Shown: positions 11,999-32,361 of the stretch, in pieces
Layout of the letters: each line of letters begins with the position of its first letter
How positions within the stretch are numbered: position 1 is the first letter of the stretch
DNA from: a virus
Length of the DNA stretch: 39,392 nt
Direction: 5' to 3' (one strand)
Virus record (IMG/VR): IMGVR_UViG_3300019867_000002
Span: 1-39,392 of that record
Translations under genes and position numbers: made by a program
The notes under the pieces: model-generated
What the model saw: only the letters and a program-made list of their open reading frames with translations
The model's database searches: none
What the model was told of the DNA's origin: nothing

Positions 11999-12319
11999 TT
12001 AGTATTTATTATACTGTCCATAAATTCGCTCCATTGTCTTTCCTTCATCGTTTACAATGTAAGCTACTTCGTCGTTGTTAATAACGTATGTATTATTTTT
12101 TCCGAAAACAATTACTCTAACCTTTTCTTTTTCTTCATACGTACAAGGAATATCTTTAAAATATTCGTCAACTGTTGATTCAAATAAACTTTTTTCTGAA
12201 GAAGCATTTACGCTTTTAATCTTAGATAAATAAGTGTAGCTATCTTCACCTAAGCTGTAGTTAATTGTTCTTTCACATCCTTCTAAATTCTGATTGATAA
12301 TTCTTAACAAATAATTCAT
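11999..12319 (-). CDS. Unknown protein, 106 residues
   Basis: A mixed alpha/beta soluble protein with no recognised motif; two cysteines (GCERT, PCTYEE). It is the last gene of the first late unit, after the tape measure and two small genes, and is followed by a terminator. The C-terminal half looks beta-rich (VRVIVFGKNNTYVINNDEVAYIV). Confidence 0.55.
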   Translation of the reverse strand: MNYLLRIINQNLEGCERTINYSLGEDSYTYLSKIKSVNASSEKSLFESTVDEYFKDIPCTYEEKEKVRVIVFGKNNTYVINNDEVAYIVNDEGKTMERIYGQYNKY

Positions 12320-12368
12320 GATATATAATGTATAATATTTTGCCTACTCTTTAGCTTTTCGGCATCCG

Positions 12369-12602
12369 CTATATTGTTATATTTTTTTCCATGTCTACAA
12401 TTGCTCTGCGAACTGTATTAACTGATATTTTAAAATGTCTGCTGACTATGTCGTATTTCTTCATCTGAGCAGGTTCGTAATCTATAGATTTATAAAACAA
12501 ATAAATGTCGTAATCGTTTAAAACAGAAAGCGGAAGCTTTCCAATCTTCACAAACGTTTGCACAATCTTAATATTTGAACTTATATAATTTGCTACTTTC
12601 AT
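12369..12602 (-). CDS. Small HTH-like protein
   Basis: A 77-residue protein. I chose the ATG at 12600-12602 because it overlaps the upstream stop as ATGA; a GTG three codons earlier is less likely. Residues of about 48-72 (MKKYDIVSRHFKISVNTVRRAIVDMEK) fit a helix-turn-helix in which the second helix is NTVRRAIVDM. It could be a late-gene regulator. It lies among tail genes, which is an odd place for a regulator. Confidence 0.6.
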   Translation of the reverse strand: MKVANYISSNIKIVQTFVKIGKLPLSVLNDYDIYLFYKSIDYEPAQMKKYDIVSRHFKISVNTVRRAIVDMEKNITI

Positions 12603-27499: not shown

Positions 27500-29848
27500 T
27501 TAAAATGGTATTTCGTTATCGTCTTCTTTTGGTTGTGTTGGGTCCTCAAAATCAATCCATCGTGTTGCATTGGTCCTCCCTGAAACATATTTAAGTCCGT
27601 AATACTTTGCATAAGATTCGAGCCATTGTGTGAACTTTCTTTGTGATAGGAACTTTTTAAAATCTTGGTACTCATTACAGAATTTTGTAAAATATTCCGT
27701 TTTATCAATTCTAAAGTTATGAGGTAAATTTTCACGGTCCGAACTCCATTCGTAAAATTCGTATGAAGTTTCTTTTATGAATTTTCTAACTTCAAGATTA
27801 TTGAAATTATGTTTTACTAGTCCGTTTTTAAGATAGTATTGTTCACAATTAATCATAAAGTTATCAAAACGTAACCATTCTTTTTGATCCCAATCAGAAT
27901 ACAGCATGTGTCCAAATTCATCTAAAGGTGTGTGTTTGTGACTGAAAAATGAGGACATTTCGACTTCAAACTTTCTGCGCTCAAATGATCCCCCAATACC
28001 TCCAACAGTATAATTTGTTGTAATCAAAATCTTTGGACTTTTTTCAACCGGAATTGTTATTGCATCCTGTCCTTTGTATTCGAGTGTAATTCCCTCCGTT
28101 ATAAGTGAAAATAGGTTCTCAAAGTTGAAATTCTTTTTAACATCATCGAATACTAAAATTTGAGTATCAGTGCTTACGGTTTGGTAAGGAAATGTTTTTG
28201 TTGGCTCAAACATTTTTCCATCTATTCTGGAAACCTTTTTCATGTTTTTTAATCCATTCCAAAAAATACCTTTTCCACTACCTCCATTTGGATTCTCACT
28301 TATTGTTTCATCGTTGAATATTATTGCTTTATTATTTGCTGATGTTTTGAATGAGTGAAGTAAATAACCAATTACGCTTTTTAATGAATTATACTTTTGT
28401 ACATCTTTACCGGATGCAAGCCATAAGTAAGTCCTGAACTCTGAATCGTGATGATCAAATAATTCATAATTCCTATCAATTATTTGCCTTCTCCATACAT
28501 AACCGTCAAGGTCTAAATAATCAATTTTTTCTATTTTTTCAGAAGTCACTTTTACTACACAATTTTTAAAATACAAATAACATTCAGTAGATGTATCTTC
28601 TTTTATTTCTACTTCTGTAGTGTCGAGCATTGAAAGAAAATCAGGCTTAAAATAACCGCTGTTTGAAGCCATATAATCGTATGGTCCATATCCAATATTA
28701 GAACGATCCAATATGTTCTTTAAAACATAATCTTTGATCCTTTTTTCGTTAGTTTCTTCTAAAAGATTCTGATCCTTTTTTATGAATGTAAAAGTGTTAC
28801 TTTGTTCTGAAGGATAGTATTTGAAAAAATTGTTTTGCTCAAGCCAAAATTTAAACTTATGAGTTGAAAGAACAACCTTTCCTTTATCATTATAAAACCA
28901 AAATTCATCAATATCAAGTGTTTCTTTTATTCTGGAAATATCAACATCTTTATATACTTTTTCAATATCCTTTACCGATTTACCAGAACGGACCATTTTT
29001 TCAATCTTTTCTTTTTGCGAAGTATCTTCAAATGCTTTTCCGGCAGAAGGTCTTTTATAAGCAGAACGGACCAACGCTTCAATTTCTTTTTGTTTTCCTC
29101 CTTCATCATACTTCATACATTCAGAAAGTGCATCATTGTAATCAATACTGAAGTCGTTGAAAGCGGAAGCAAGTTTATGAAGGTTATTGTTCTTTGATCC
29201 TTTATTCATTCCGTATTTTTTGGTCCACCAAACCAATAATTTTTCTACAATCTGGTTTGACGAAGTCATTCTTACGATTGGCTCATAAGTTCCTATTTCT
29301 TCAATCTCAGGTTCTTCTAATTCGGTCCATTTTGAACTTTCTGGATTAATATAAATATCAGGGTCGTAGCTTTCAAAACAAGTACGTGAAACATCGCTTC
29401 CTGAATCATCCCAATTAGGATGATTAAAGTATTTTTTCAATGATTGAAAATAGCCTTTATGATTTTCTGTGATGCCTGGTATTTTAACCAATATTTTTAC
29501 ACCCAATGCAGAAGGAGAAATCCAAACTGAATAAATGTATTCATCACTTAGAATTGAGTTCTTAAATTCAATTGCTTCGTCTTTTGTTTTGAATTTATCA
29601 AAGTCTAAAATAATTAATCCTGAGTGCTCAATCAGTCCGGTTATTGATCTGCTTTTGAATTTTCCATTGAAACAAACTACAGGTAGCTTTGATTTATTCT
29701 TTGCGTAATCTTCCGGATTCATTAAACGCAATTGTTCTACAAAATCTTTTGATTTACCTTCTTGAATACGCTTCAATGCATATTCAACTCCTTTGTTAAA
29801 AGGATTGTTTACATCGGTTATTTTTTTAAAGATTGATACTATTGGCAT
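27500..29848 (-). CDS. Primase-helicase: VirE/BT4734-type N-domain and SF3-type helicase
   Basis: A 782-residue replication protein. Residues of about 1-170 resemble the BT4734/VirE N-terminal primase-like domain, with acidic motif LDFD (81-84), SPSALGVKILVK (111-122) and DVSRTCFESYDP (152-163). Residues of about 480-700 are an SF3/D5-like ATPase: Walker A GGSGKG (522-527), Walker B ILVFDD (564-569), sensor ILITTN (607-612). A long linker joins them. It should unwind and prime at the phage origin. Eight GGWCC words lie in this gene. The start overlaps the upstream gene by 10 bases. Confidence 0.88.
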   Translation of the reverse strand: MPIVSIFKKITDVNNPFNKGVEYALKRIQEGKSKDFVEQLRLMNPEDYAKNKSKLPVVCFNGKFKSRSITGLIEHSGLIILDFDKFKTKDEAIEFKNSILSDEYIYSVWISPSALGVKILVKIPGITENHKGYFQSLKKYFNHPNWDDSGSDVSRTCFESYDPDIYINPESSKWTELEEPEIEEIGTYEPIVRMTSSNQIVEKLLVWWTKKYGMNKGSKNNNLHKLASAFNDFSIDYNDALSECMKYDEGGKQKEIEALVRSAYKRPSAGKAFEDTSQKEKIEKMVRSGKSVKDIEKVYKDVDISRIKETLDIDEFWFYNDKGKVVLSTHKFKFWLEQNNFFKYYPSEQSNTFTFIKKDQNLLEETNEKRIKDYVLKNILDRSNIGYGPYDYMASNSGYFKPDFLSMLDTTEVEIKEDTSTECYLYFKNCVVKVTSEKIEKIDYLDLDGYVWRRQIIDRNYELFDHHDSEFRTYLWLASGKDVQKYNSLKSVIGYLLHSFKTSANNKAIIFNDETISENPNGGSGKGIFWNGLKNMKKVSRIDGKMFEPTKTFPYQTVSTDTQILVFDDVKKNFNFENLFSLITEGITLEYKGQDAITIPVEKSPKILITTNYTVGGIGGSFERRKFEVEMSSFFSHKHTPLDEFGHMLYSDWDQKEWLRFDNFMINCEQYYLKNGLVKHNFNNLEVRKFIKETSYEFYEWSSDRENLPHNFRIDKTEYFTKFCNEYQDFKKFLSQRKFTQWLESYAKYYGLKYVSGRTNATRWIDFEDPTQPKEDDNEIPF

Positions 29849-30240
29849 GATTCTACTAATTTGTTAAATGCGTTTCTTAAATGTTTATGTTGAGAAACAA
29901 TACCTTTTTTATTTAAAAATAAATATTGATCTCCAAAAAATACAATTTTTTTACCCGATACATTAAATTTATCTTCAATCCTGTATATTTTTAAATTATC
30001 TACAGAGTTATTAAGTTTATTGAAATCCAAATGCCCTACTTTTATTCGGTTGTGAAAATTAATATCAAAATCAAAAAACAATCTGGCAACTATATTTTTT
30101 AGCATTTCGTTACCTGACCCAGAATTAATAATTATATCTCCGTGCATATTTATATGACCATAAACTATTTTATTAGTTTTATTATTCAGCACTACACCAT
30201 CATCTCTTATTAAATAATTTTCGTATTCTTTAATTTCCAT
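29839..30240 (-). CDS. NUMOD4/HNH-like homing-endonuclease relative
   Basis: A 133-residue protein. N-terminus YENYLIRDDGVVLNNKTNK resembles NUMOD4; KVGHLDFNKLNNSVDNLKIYR (about 68-88) resembles the core of HNH_3 nucleases, where a first His before HLDxN is usually needed but is Gly here. So it may be inactive or purely DNA-binding. It starts 12 bases after the attenuator hairpin and carries no GGWCC word, unlike its neighbours, which may mean a separate origin. Confidence 0.55.
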   Translation of the reverse strand: MEIKEYENYLIRDDGVVLNNKTNKIVYGHINMHGDIIINSGSGNEMLKNIVARLFFDFDINFHNRIKVGHLDFNKLNNSVDNLKIYRIEDKFNVSGKKIVFFGDQYLFLNKKGIVSQHKHLRNAFNKLVESCQ

Positions 30241-30251
30241 AATTTATAAAA

Positions 30252-30299
30252 TAAAAAAATCCTATCAGATTGGAGGTTGCAGCTCCGCACTGATAGGAT
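30252..30299 (-). terminator. Two-tier terminator hairpin ahead of the replication genes
   Basis: On the minus strand a perfect 10-base-pair outer stem (30290-30299 with 30259-30268, ATCCTATCAG) and an inner 4-base-pair stem (30283-30286 with 30272-30275, GGAG/CTCC) are followed by seven T (30259 to 30253). The inner loop CTGCAAC is exactly 7 bases. It lies between its own promoter (30348-30376) and the gene at 30240, so it can act as an attenuator. Confidence 0.85.
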
Positions 30300-30342
30300 A
30301 ATATAAAATGTCTTAAACGTAATAATCCTGCAACGAATACTA
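30253..30342 (-). ncRNA. Predicted ~90-base structured RNA / attenuator leader
   Basis: Transcription from promoter 30348-30376 should begin near 30342 and stop at the hairpin near 30253. The 5' part holds GTTGCAG (30328-30334), the exact complement of the hairpin loop CTGCAAC (30276-30282), which allows a 7-base-pair pseudoknot. The AGGAT at 30325-30329 can also pair with ATCCT of the terminator stem, a weak anti-terminator. It could be a free small RNA, an attenuator for the replication operon, or both. I match it to no known RNA family. Confidence 0.55.
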
Positions 30343-30347
30343 CAAAG

Positions 30348-30376
30348 CAAATATAGTAAATAAATTTAAATAACAA
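30348..30376 (-). promoter_or_regulatory. Bacteroidota-type promoter of replication operon
   Basis: On the minus strand: TTG (30374-30376), 18 bases, TATATTTG (30348-30355), a full match. It lies between terminators 30586-30619 and 30252-30299. Confidence 0.75.
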
Positions 30377-30585
30377 ACAAAAACCACAAATGTTTTATAT
30401 TTTTTTAACTAAGACGTTACTTTTGTCACTTCTTAAGTATTGATATTATTGAAAAGTGACGTAAGGGCGTAGTAAAATTGATTTTTTATTAAGTTGGTTA
30501 ATTTTACAAAAACATAAAAAATACATATAAAGAGTAATATGTATTTTTGACGATGTGTCACGCTTTTTTGTAAGTAAATACAAAT
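30377..30585. other. AT-rich gene-free region, possible replication origin
   Basis: The whole 30241-30627 interval has no credible gene. This part is strongly AT-rich and has GTCAC/GTGAC words at about 30425, 30455 and 30556. Two of them form an inverted pair, GTCACTT and AAGTGAC, about 22 bases apart. It is next to the primase-helicase operon. These features suit an origin, but no iteron array is clear. Confidence 0.35.
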
Positions 30586-30627: not shown

Positions 30628-32262
30628 TCACGAAAAAATAGCCTTTAATCTACTTTCAATCTTTTCTTGCAAATAGGAGTAGGTCCGAGGAACACCATTT
30701 TTTATCATATTTACATATCCGTAGTTTTTTTTAAGATATTCCTGAATTCTAGTATACAGATACCCGGTCCTCACTCGTTCTAAATATGTCGCTTTATCTA
30801 CTCTATACAATTTCCAAAGATCAACATATTTTTCAATTAAGATCCTGTAATAGTCCTTTTTGTCATTGCTGGTCCTAACAACAAATTCAGCTATTTTTTT
30901 TCCATTTGGCAAAGGTATTGTTTGCAAGGCAACTGTTTTTTTATCTACAATATCAAGTTCTTGCTCTTCGTCACCTGATGGTGTACGGACCATTAATTGA
31001 ACTACATTTACATGTCCGCAATCTGGACATTCATCTTTATTTGAACCAAGCCAATTGTAACCGCATTTTTCGCATTGGACCAATATTTCTTTTTTCTTTC
31101 TGGCTTTTACAACTCCATTATAAAAAATATCTTTCCAGTCTAGTTTATCGGACCATTTACCTAATCGTTTTACATTTCCTCCTAAATCAATTACAATAAA
31201 ATTATCTTTAAAAATTAAGTCACTTGGTCTTGCGCCCCTGCCTATAATTTGATGCCATAATGATAATGATTTAGTCGGTCGGTTTACAATGATGCATTCG
31301 ACTTCTTTGACATCGAATCCGGTTGTAAAAGTTCCGGTACTCACAAGGATTGCTCCATCCGTTTCTTTGAACCATTGGACCGTTGTTTTACGTTCCGATA
31401 CTTCATTATTTACAGAATCATAAGATTGTATTTTATGTCCTGCTTCGGTAAAAGTTTGGACCAATGAAGTATTTTGTTTTGTCGAAGCTGTAAAAATCAT
31501 TGTCTTTTTTCCGATTGCTTTTTCTACATATTCATCTAAAACATTTTTATCGTGTTTTATACTTTCTTCTGCAATTTCATTCTCGTCAAAATCATCATCG
31601 CCTTTTGCTTTTAATTCAGAATAGTAATCGTAATCAAAAATAATTTCATCTACTAAAGAACCTTCATCGATCAGGACCCGAATAGGAATTCCGACAATTA
31701 CAGTATCATAAGTTTCGGACATGGTCACGGGTGCGCTCCATTTTATAGCGTGATCCTTATAACAACAAACTTCACGTGTTTTAAATCGCTTATTACAATG
31801 TTCGCATTCATAATAAGTAATACGTTTGTTTAGTGAAGGAGTTGCTGTAAATCCGGTCCTAAATGCGTTGTCGAATAAATGAAATGTTTTAACATGGACC
31901 TGCTCGTGCGCTTCATCTACAATAAATAAACCAATATCGAGTTTAATTTTTCGTGAATGAATGGTTTGCGTCATTCCGACAAAAACATTATTACTAAAAT
32001 CCGGTTTTGATTTAGCCGTAATCTTATCGTTTAGTATTCCGAGCCTTGCGAGTGTGTAACTCGTTTGATCTACAAGTTCGTCACGATGTACCGAAACCAA
32101 AACTTTTTTACCAGGATTACGATTAAGCCATTCTTTAATAAAAAAAGACATGATTACAGTTTTACCTGATCCTGTAGCAGACTGACATAAAACCGAGTTG
32201 TGGACCTTCTCGGCTTCAAATATGGAATTAACCATATCTGATTGATAGTATCTTAATTGCAT
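30628..32262 (-). CDS. SF2 (DEAD/DEAH-type) helicase with two zinc-finger-like inserts
   Basis: A 544-residue protein read from the ATG at 32260-32262 (RYYQSDMVNSI follows, the usual start of this family). A longer frame to 32343 would run through the structured leader. Motifs: Walker A ATGSGKT (29-35), DEAH (116-119), TATP (139-142), QIIGRGAR (338-345). Cys sets at 153/156/166/167 with His171, and at 397/400/412/415, look like zinc fingers. The first is inserted right after the TATP motif. A role in phage replication or recombination is likely. Twelve GGWCC words lie in this gene. Confidence 0.9.
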   Translation of the reverse strand: MQLRYYQSDMVNSIFEAEKVHNSVLCQSATGSGKTVIMSFFIKEWLNRNPGKKVLVSVHRDELVDQTSYTLARLGILNDKITAKSKPDFSNNVFVGMTQTIHSRKIKLDIGLFIVDEAHEQVHVKTFHLFDNAFRTGFTATPSLNKRITYYECEHCNKRFKTREVCCYKDHAIKWSAPVTMSETYDTVIVGIPIRVLIDEGSLVDEIIFDYDYYSELKAKGDDDFDENEIAEESIKHDKNVLDEYVEKAIGKKTMIFTASTKQNTSLVQTFTEAGHKIQSYDSVNNEVSERKTTVQWFKETDGAILVSTGTFTTGFDVKEVECIIVNRPTKSLSLWHQIIGRGARPSDLIFKDNFIVIDLGGNVKRLGKWSDKLDWKDIFYNGVVKARKKKEILVQCEKCGYNWLGSNKDECPDCGHVNVVQLMVRTPSGDEEQELDIVDKKTVALQTIPLPNGKKIAEFVVRTSNDKKDYYRILIEKYVDLWKLYRVDKATYLERVRTGYLYTRIQEYLKKNYGYVNMIKNGVPRTYSYLQEKIESRLKAIFS

Positions 32263-32277
32263 AGTGTATAAATGAAA

Positions 32278-32361
32278 AACCGTCCTATAAGCCACTACAC
32301 TCATAAAACGGTTATCGATTAGACGTTGTCTAAATATCTTCACTCGAGTAGTGGATCGAGT
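32278..32361 (-). promoter_or_regulatory. Structured mRNA leader with three hairpins and loop-loop match
   Basis: In the 157-base gap before the helicase gene, the minus strand has: H1, 6-bp stem ACTCGA/TCGAGT (32356-32361, 32342-32347); H2, 6-bp stem TTAGAC/GTCTAA with a 3-base loop (32319-32333); H3, 6-bp stem AACCGT/ACGGTT (32308-32313, 32278-32283) followed by T. The H1 loop CCACTAC (32348-32354) is exactly complementary to GTAGTGG (32292-32298) in the 24-base H3 loop. H3 lies 15 bases before the start codon. This suits a kissing-loop regulator of translation or termination. Confidence 0.5.

Follow-up and report, generated by a model that had tools for sequence, protein, structure and literature searches.

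Several described systems share parts of the arrangement reported here. At lambda pR'-tR' a promoter is followed by a short leader, a terminator and then genes, and the HK022 put RNA places two hairpins right after its promoter; put is, to our knowledge, not itself a terminator, and we know of no kissing between its two hairpins. The phage leaders that we describe have the same order of promoter, short leader, terminator and genes, but no assigned Q-, N- or put-like factor. ColE1 RNA I and RNA II are two antisense transcripts from one site that interact through 7-base, fully paired kissing loops, and these loop pairs diversify. The loop pairs of our leaders are of the same size, are likewise fully paired and also diversify; they lie, however, on one transcript, and because the loops are complementary within one strand no opposite-strand antisense RNA is needed. 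Purine and fluoride (crcB) riboswitches combine a tertiary contact between loops with a terminator in the leader, as do the leaders here, which differ in having no conserved ligand core and in using the terminator loop itself as the kissing partner. We know of no described system in which a 5' hairpin kisses the loop of a terminator. In crcB the terminators overlap the motif (PMC2864571). In pT181-type antisense attenuators, as here, a 5' UTR with a 5' hairpin and an intrinsic terminator precedes a replication gene, and the kissing hairpins carry interior loops, which are thought to aid loop pairing in kissing antisense systems (PMC4878617). Their kissing partner is a separate antisense RNA, whereas here both loops lie on one RNA and one of them is the terminator loop; moreover, an anti-terminator for the terminator stem is part of their 5' hairpin, whereas in our leaders none is conserved and no pairing of a terminator arm with the leader is comparable to the kiss. 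STAXI (PMC2864571) and Flavo-1 (PMC9723704) are similar in being structured elements near DNA-handling genes or widespread in the Flavobacteriaceae, but STAXI is a tandem-repeated pseudoknot (PMC2864571) and Flavo-1, which is Rfam family RF01705, matched no leader tested.

The window analyzed here is the whole 39,392-nucleotide stretch of IMG/VR virus record IMGVR_UViG_3300019867_000002. On its minus strand, between a helicase gene (stop near 30628, own terminator 30619–30589) and an operon of an HNH-like and a primase-helicase gene, lies what its sequence identifies as a structured RNA leader with kissing hairpins (copy A). The features of this leader, the two genes that follow it and a second leader (copy B) are as follows.

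30348–30377, minus strand: predicted sigma-A promoter of Bacteroidota type, composed of TTTG (30377–30374) and the -7 box TATATTTG (30355–30348).
30319–30343, minus strand: HP1, the 5' hairpin GUAGUA-U-UC-[GUUGCAG]-GA-U-UAUUAC (minimum free energy fold, covariation, arm test, start position).
30328–30334, minus strand: K', GTTGCAG, the 7-base loop of HP1 and 5' partner of the kissing helix (sequence, fold, covariation, non-circular tests).
30300–30318, minus strand: A/U-rich linker separating HP1 and HP3 (sequence).
30259–30299, minus strand: HP3, the two-tier terminator hairpin ATCCTATCAG-TGC-GGAG-(CTGCAAC)-CTCC-AAT-CTGATAGGAT (sequence, fold, covariation).
30276–30282, minus strand: K, CTGCAAC, the 7-base loop of HP3 and exact complement of K' (sequence, covariation, non-circular tests).
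30253–30259, minus strand: terminator U-tract of 7 T, the first of which is the last base of the HP3 stem (sequence; U-tract across the family).
29839–30240, minus strand: first gene after the leader, encoding a 133-aa HNH-endonuclease-like protein (PHROG 959, E=5e-7).
27500–29848, minus strand: second gene, overlapping the first and encoding a 782-aa primase-helicase-like protein with a BT4734-like (VirE) N-domain (PF08800, E=2e-19).
32275–32361, minus strand: leader copy B, with HP1 (32361–32342), K' CCACTAC (32354–32348), HP2 (32333–32319), HP3 (32313–32278), K GTAGTGG (32298–32292) and a U-tract.

The sigma-A box of Flavobacterium (F. psychrophilum) has the consensus TAnnTTTG and lies at -12 to -5 (PMC9723704), which places the predicted RNA start of copy A at 30343, with GUAGUA as its first bases. 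An earlier sequence-only reading of this locus had reported a promoter, an exact complementarity between GTTGCAG and CTGCAAC, and a terminator hairpin. All of its coordinates check against the sequence and the complementarity is present as described, so that the observation holds, with two refinements. The promoter is, as judged from its box, of the bacteroidetal sigma-A type and not sigma-70; in a sigma-70 scan the TATATTTG site was not among the 60 sites listed, and the 86 sigma-70-like sites found were no excess over shuffles (86.0). The pairing that had been called a pseudoknot exists, but because K' is, in the minimum free energy fold, the loop of its own 5' hairpin, the interaction is a loop–loop kiss and not a simple pseudoknot. 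In this fold the first base of HP1 is the predicted first base of the transcript. HP3 has a 10-bp outer stem (ATCCTATCAG/CTGATAGGAT), an internal loop (TGC/AAT) and a 4-bp inner stem (GGAG/CTCC), and 18 bases separate it from the start codon (ATG) of the HNH-like gene. The leader strand folds better than 200 of 200 shuffles (z -3.7).

Taken alone, one 7-mer match is weak evidence, and a complementarity arising by chance beside an ordinary terminator could produce it: a descriptor composed of TAnnTTTG, then K', then a terminator hairpin containing its complement K finds one match in the window against 0, 0, 0, 0, 0, 0, 0, 1, 0 and 0 in ten dinucleotide shuffles, so that a shuffled genome yields a match about once in ten. 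We nevertheless give chance practically no credence, because comparative data refute it, every independent control being far exceeded. When TATATTTG boxes and terminator hairpins 40–75 bases further on were chosen blind to complementarity (73 non-redundant pairs), the hairpin interior and the leader shared a complement of at least 6 bases in 59 pairs (81%) and of at least 7 bases in 53 (73%), compared with 7.5% and 2.8% after swapping partners. The HP1 arms around K', scored without reference to K, reach 10.9 versus 5.9±0.26 (sd) with shuffled partners. Seven homologs served to build a covariance model that includes HP1 and HP3 and leaves out the kiss; run over 60 loci, it gave 65 matches outside the seed at E<=1; a kiss of at least 6 bases is present in 62 of these and of at least 7 bases in 52, versus 13% and 5% when swapped, and the three non-kissing matches are false, one of them being the antisense strand of the window element. 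Among the seven near homologs 91% of cells are paired, and 17 of 29 pairs are changed on both sides versus 8.2±1.8 in shuffles, figures that are not exact probabilities given a small alignment of related sequences. The kissing helix is 100% paired there and includes three double-changed pairs, and pairing collapses to 34–49% after a shift of the partner by one to three columns; these slid controls, like the swapped ones, are less affected by relatedness. Loss of the complementarity in relatives had been named beforehand as the observation that would speak against the element, and we find it instead to be kept with compensating changes. These comparative tests support the proposal of a structured RNA leader made in the sequence-only reading.

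A megablast search of phage records gave no match. A sensitive blastn search, and blastn only, found a counterpart in Olleya phage Harreka_1, with the same promoter, HP1, terminator and U-tract and with loops (GTGGTGG/CCACCAC) that are again exact complements; this leader precedes an unrelated gene of 43 aa. In 2.46 Mb of loci fetched by protein similarity the descriptor has 101 non-redundant matches, whereas the controls gave 14 (reversed), 23 (complemented) and 17 (identical), and removal of 12 by eye left 89 credible non-redundant elements that carry 63 different K. The genes downstream of them represent about 30 families with no relation to one another; most are early genes for DNA handling, among them helicases, primase and HNH/NUMOD endonucleases, and many have no assigned function. 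A phage may have several leaders: Flavobacterium phage snusmum6-1 has three, before helicase gp33, HNH endonuclease gp40 and gp43; L101 also has three and the window two. Loops turn over rapidly: among 15 primase-family leaders there are 12 different K, and among 14 of a second helicase family 11. Two forms recur. In one, to which window copy A and Harreka_1 belong, K' starts in GT; in the other, represented by window copy B, K' ends in AC and the linker sometimes holds an additional small hairpin. Purine-rich internal loops are frequent in HP3, although internal loops vary and some type I copies have none (L004). We observed that internal loops of the forms GGAGUA/GAAA (bulged-G-like) and UGAA/GGAU (tandem G-A-like) recur, for example at L099:30126, L011:4563, L131:5080 and L171:10245. 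Within genomes, none of 22 leader pairs shares at least 4 loop bases, versus 13% between genomes, which in this small and non-independent sample is no more than suggestive of loop pairs that are orthogonal within a genome.

The leaders occur in a subset of Bacteroidota phages and not in all. The covariance model found no element in Leef_1, phi46:1, lotta8-1 or ctfjg026, and descriptor matches there were judged spurious. Two family-wide searches of Flavobacteriaceae chromosomes (199 and 41 genomes) found no kissing element at low sensitivity, with 19 or 94 candidates scored per genome, which is weak evidence for absence from host chromosomes. One true copy is on a MAG contig (L242, G003:C320), ahead of the same phage-type helicase. 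This copy has a 6-base loop pair (TTGCGC/GCGCAA) and the box TAATATTG; 6-base versions and a looser promoter of this kind escape the descriptor. In three further loci (L033:1294, L181:6057 and L160:8633) an additional copy of K' adjoins the start codon, 14–16 bases after the hairpin, and the terminator loop could bind it too. As a general feature we reject this extra copy, since three cases versus 0.84 expected (maximum 4) are not significant.

Among 66 elements collected with no U-tract requirement, 58 have at least 4 T directly after the stem; T makes up 83–95% at positions 1–4 and stays high through position 6, whereas windows ahead of other ORFs are 31% T and 46% A. The ATG is 10–20 bases after the hairpin in 46 of 66 elements and within 60 in 65 of 66. 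In 59 of 79 copies the first base of HP1 is no more than 2 bases away from the predicted RNA start. The median length is 92 bases for the RNA predicted to result from termination, and the median distance from the start to the ATG is 103 bases. In these copies the stretch from terminator to start codon is too short to hold another promoter; transcripts of the gene must either pass the terminator or begin further upstream. The leaders thus have what defines attenuator leaders in general, namely a promoter, an intrinsic terminator, no gene between them, and the terminator before the start codon. Mutually exclusive terminator and anti-terminator pairings, which mark two-state attenuators but not every attenuator, are not seen across the 89 copies. 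The 5' arm of HP3 scores -5.0 against the leader (-4.4 swapped) and the 3' arm -4.6 (-4.7 swapped), compared with -14.8 for the kiss (-8.8 swapped); the slight excess of the 5' arm is small next to the kiss. Because the HP3 arms pair with the leader about as swapped arms do, there is no shared anti-terminator, and the kiss is the only conserved long-range pairing in the leader. The proposed pairing of AGGAT near the 5' end with ATCCT of the terminator stem does exist in the window, but as an anti-terminator switch we reject it, since across the 89 copies it occurs at chance level and the leaders do not share it. Promoter box, HP1, kiss, terminator, U-tract, ATG position, compensatory change and spread over gene families are all directly visible in the sequences.

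From this anatomy we posit, with a probability of about 0.6, that the leader is a cis-acting attenuator in which the kiss of HP1 with the terminator loop controls how often polymerase reads on into phage replication genes. An attenuator had been suggested for the window, and this appears to fit best because the terminator is locked 10–20 bases ahead of the ATG in most copies; a free regulatory RNA, suggested alongside it, is less favored as the main role, although a terminated leader of about 90 bases may exist. We infer transcription, termination and the effect of the kiss on termination as follows. Host RNA polymerase would initiate at the sigma-A promoter, and the RNA 5' end would close at once into HP1. 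About 50 bases on, the polymerase would make HP3, whose loop is complementary to that of HP1, and the two loops would kiss, with 7 bp in the window. Since the terminator is right before the ATG, polymerase has to pass it if this promoter is to yield any mRNA, and the kiss would most likely set the share of transcripts that terminate (RNA of about 90 bases) versus those that continue into the replication gene. The RNA exit path of polymerase holds 14 bases. With such a path, the HP3 loop would emerge when the 3' arm is nearly complete and the U-tract is a few bases ahead, and the ready-made HP1 loop could capture it at the decisive moment, competing in time with the zipping of the terminator. 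The kiss would hinder or help termination, and the sequence fits either direction. The same device, with private loop pairs, would stand ahead of several early DNA-metabolism genes in these phages.

Several points weigh against a cis-acting attenuator: no classical two-state switch is visible in the sequences, which have no conserved anti-terminator; leaders in general could instead act in mRNA protection or translation; and not all Bacteroidota phages have the elements. We regard a role in protection or translation as quite unlikely. As a structured 5' UTR, the leader would have its 5' end sealed by HP1 and compacted by the kiss into a cap, the U-tract would terminate little, and the hairpin would keep the start codon free. 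The start of HP1 at the predicted first base and a hairpin locked 10–20 bases ahead of the ATG agree with such a role, as does the finding that Flavobacterium mRNAs are without Shine-Dalgarno sequences (PMC9723704). It leaves unaccounted for, however, a true terminator U-tract that is present in nearly all copies even when unasked for (at least 4 T in 58 of 66), where A, not T, dominates before other starts. The retention of shape with free loop letters argues against a partner that reads sequence and against a metabolite pocket. A metabolite riboswitch with the kissing loops as part of its aptamer, as in purine or fluoride riboswitches, would share the leader position, the terminator and the tertiary contact; we consider it very improbable given the free loop letters, the lack of an Rfam match, and our inspection of the 89 copies, in which promoter, hairpins, kiss, U-tract and ATG are the only universal elements and no conserved unpaired core is present.

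What these comparisons appear to leave is a self-contained timer in cis, a protein that recognizes the kissing complex by its shape, or an action of leader RNAs on one another in trans. A phage or host factor could use this complex, next to a promoter-proximal terminator, as an antitermination site, much as at lambda pR'/tR' or HK022 put, and open all leaders of a phage together. Several leaders of different sequence and one shape in a single phage (three in L101, two in the window), loop letters that change while pairing is kept (12 K in the 15 primase-family leaders), and the GGAGUA/GAAA and UGAA/GGAU loops in some HP3 would suit recognition of this kind; nevertheless, no partner protein is assigned and the internal loops vary to the point of being missing in some type I copies, and we hold protein gating to be possible but doubtful. 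Action in trans, which we think unlikely, would rest on the presence of both kissing loops in each terminated leader of about 90 bases: such an RNA could pair with a leader being transcribed from another genome copy and displace the cis kiss there. Such self-sensing might make read-through track leader dose, that is, phage genome number, and might let a resident phage influence an incoming phage whose corresponding leader has an identical loop pair. It would explain rapid loop turnover with perfect complementarity as well as the unlike loops within one genome.

The sequence-only reading had matched the element to no known RNA family, and the Rfam searches now run agree with it: no leader was matched by Rfam 15 in gathering scans of the window and 7 loci or in E-value scans of the window leader and 5 further loci. 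One match of another kind was to the DUF805b RNA (RF02914, 45.6 bits) at window positions 12341–12372 on the minus strand, just upstream of ORF 11999–12319; we reject it as a related element since none of the leader anatomy is there. Searches of an open-access literature library found no description of such leaders. We regard them as a new RNA class within a general kind that is already known, the promoter-proximal attenuator leaders. If our reading is correct, a subset of Bacteroidota phages gates entry into replication genes by a portable, sequence-free RNA device, and a terminator loop captured by a 5'-end hairpin would be a new class for Rfam. For flavobacterial phages, which are poorly understood, the leaders would also give a way into the study of timing, and orthogonal terminator parts for use in Bacteroidota could readily be drawn from them; they make it testable whether loop–loop contact alone can set intrinsic termination.

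The second leader of the window, copy B, precedes a helicase gene with its ATG at 32262, and its linker holds the extra third small hairpin HP2 (TTAGACAACGTCTAA). Its promoter box is degenerate in the window and in L006 but clear in L003 and L005. The local history of copy A can be read from close relatives of the window (L003, L005, L006 and L043), whose primases are 95–98% identical. In these the HNH-like gene is absent and the primase is directly preceded by a different leader with other loops. In L011 the homologous HNH-like gene retains a leader of the window type, with the pair GTGGTGG/CCACCAC. In the window, the HNH-like gene together with its own leader seems to have taken the place of the relatives' primase leader, and leader and gene seem to travel together as mosaic modules.
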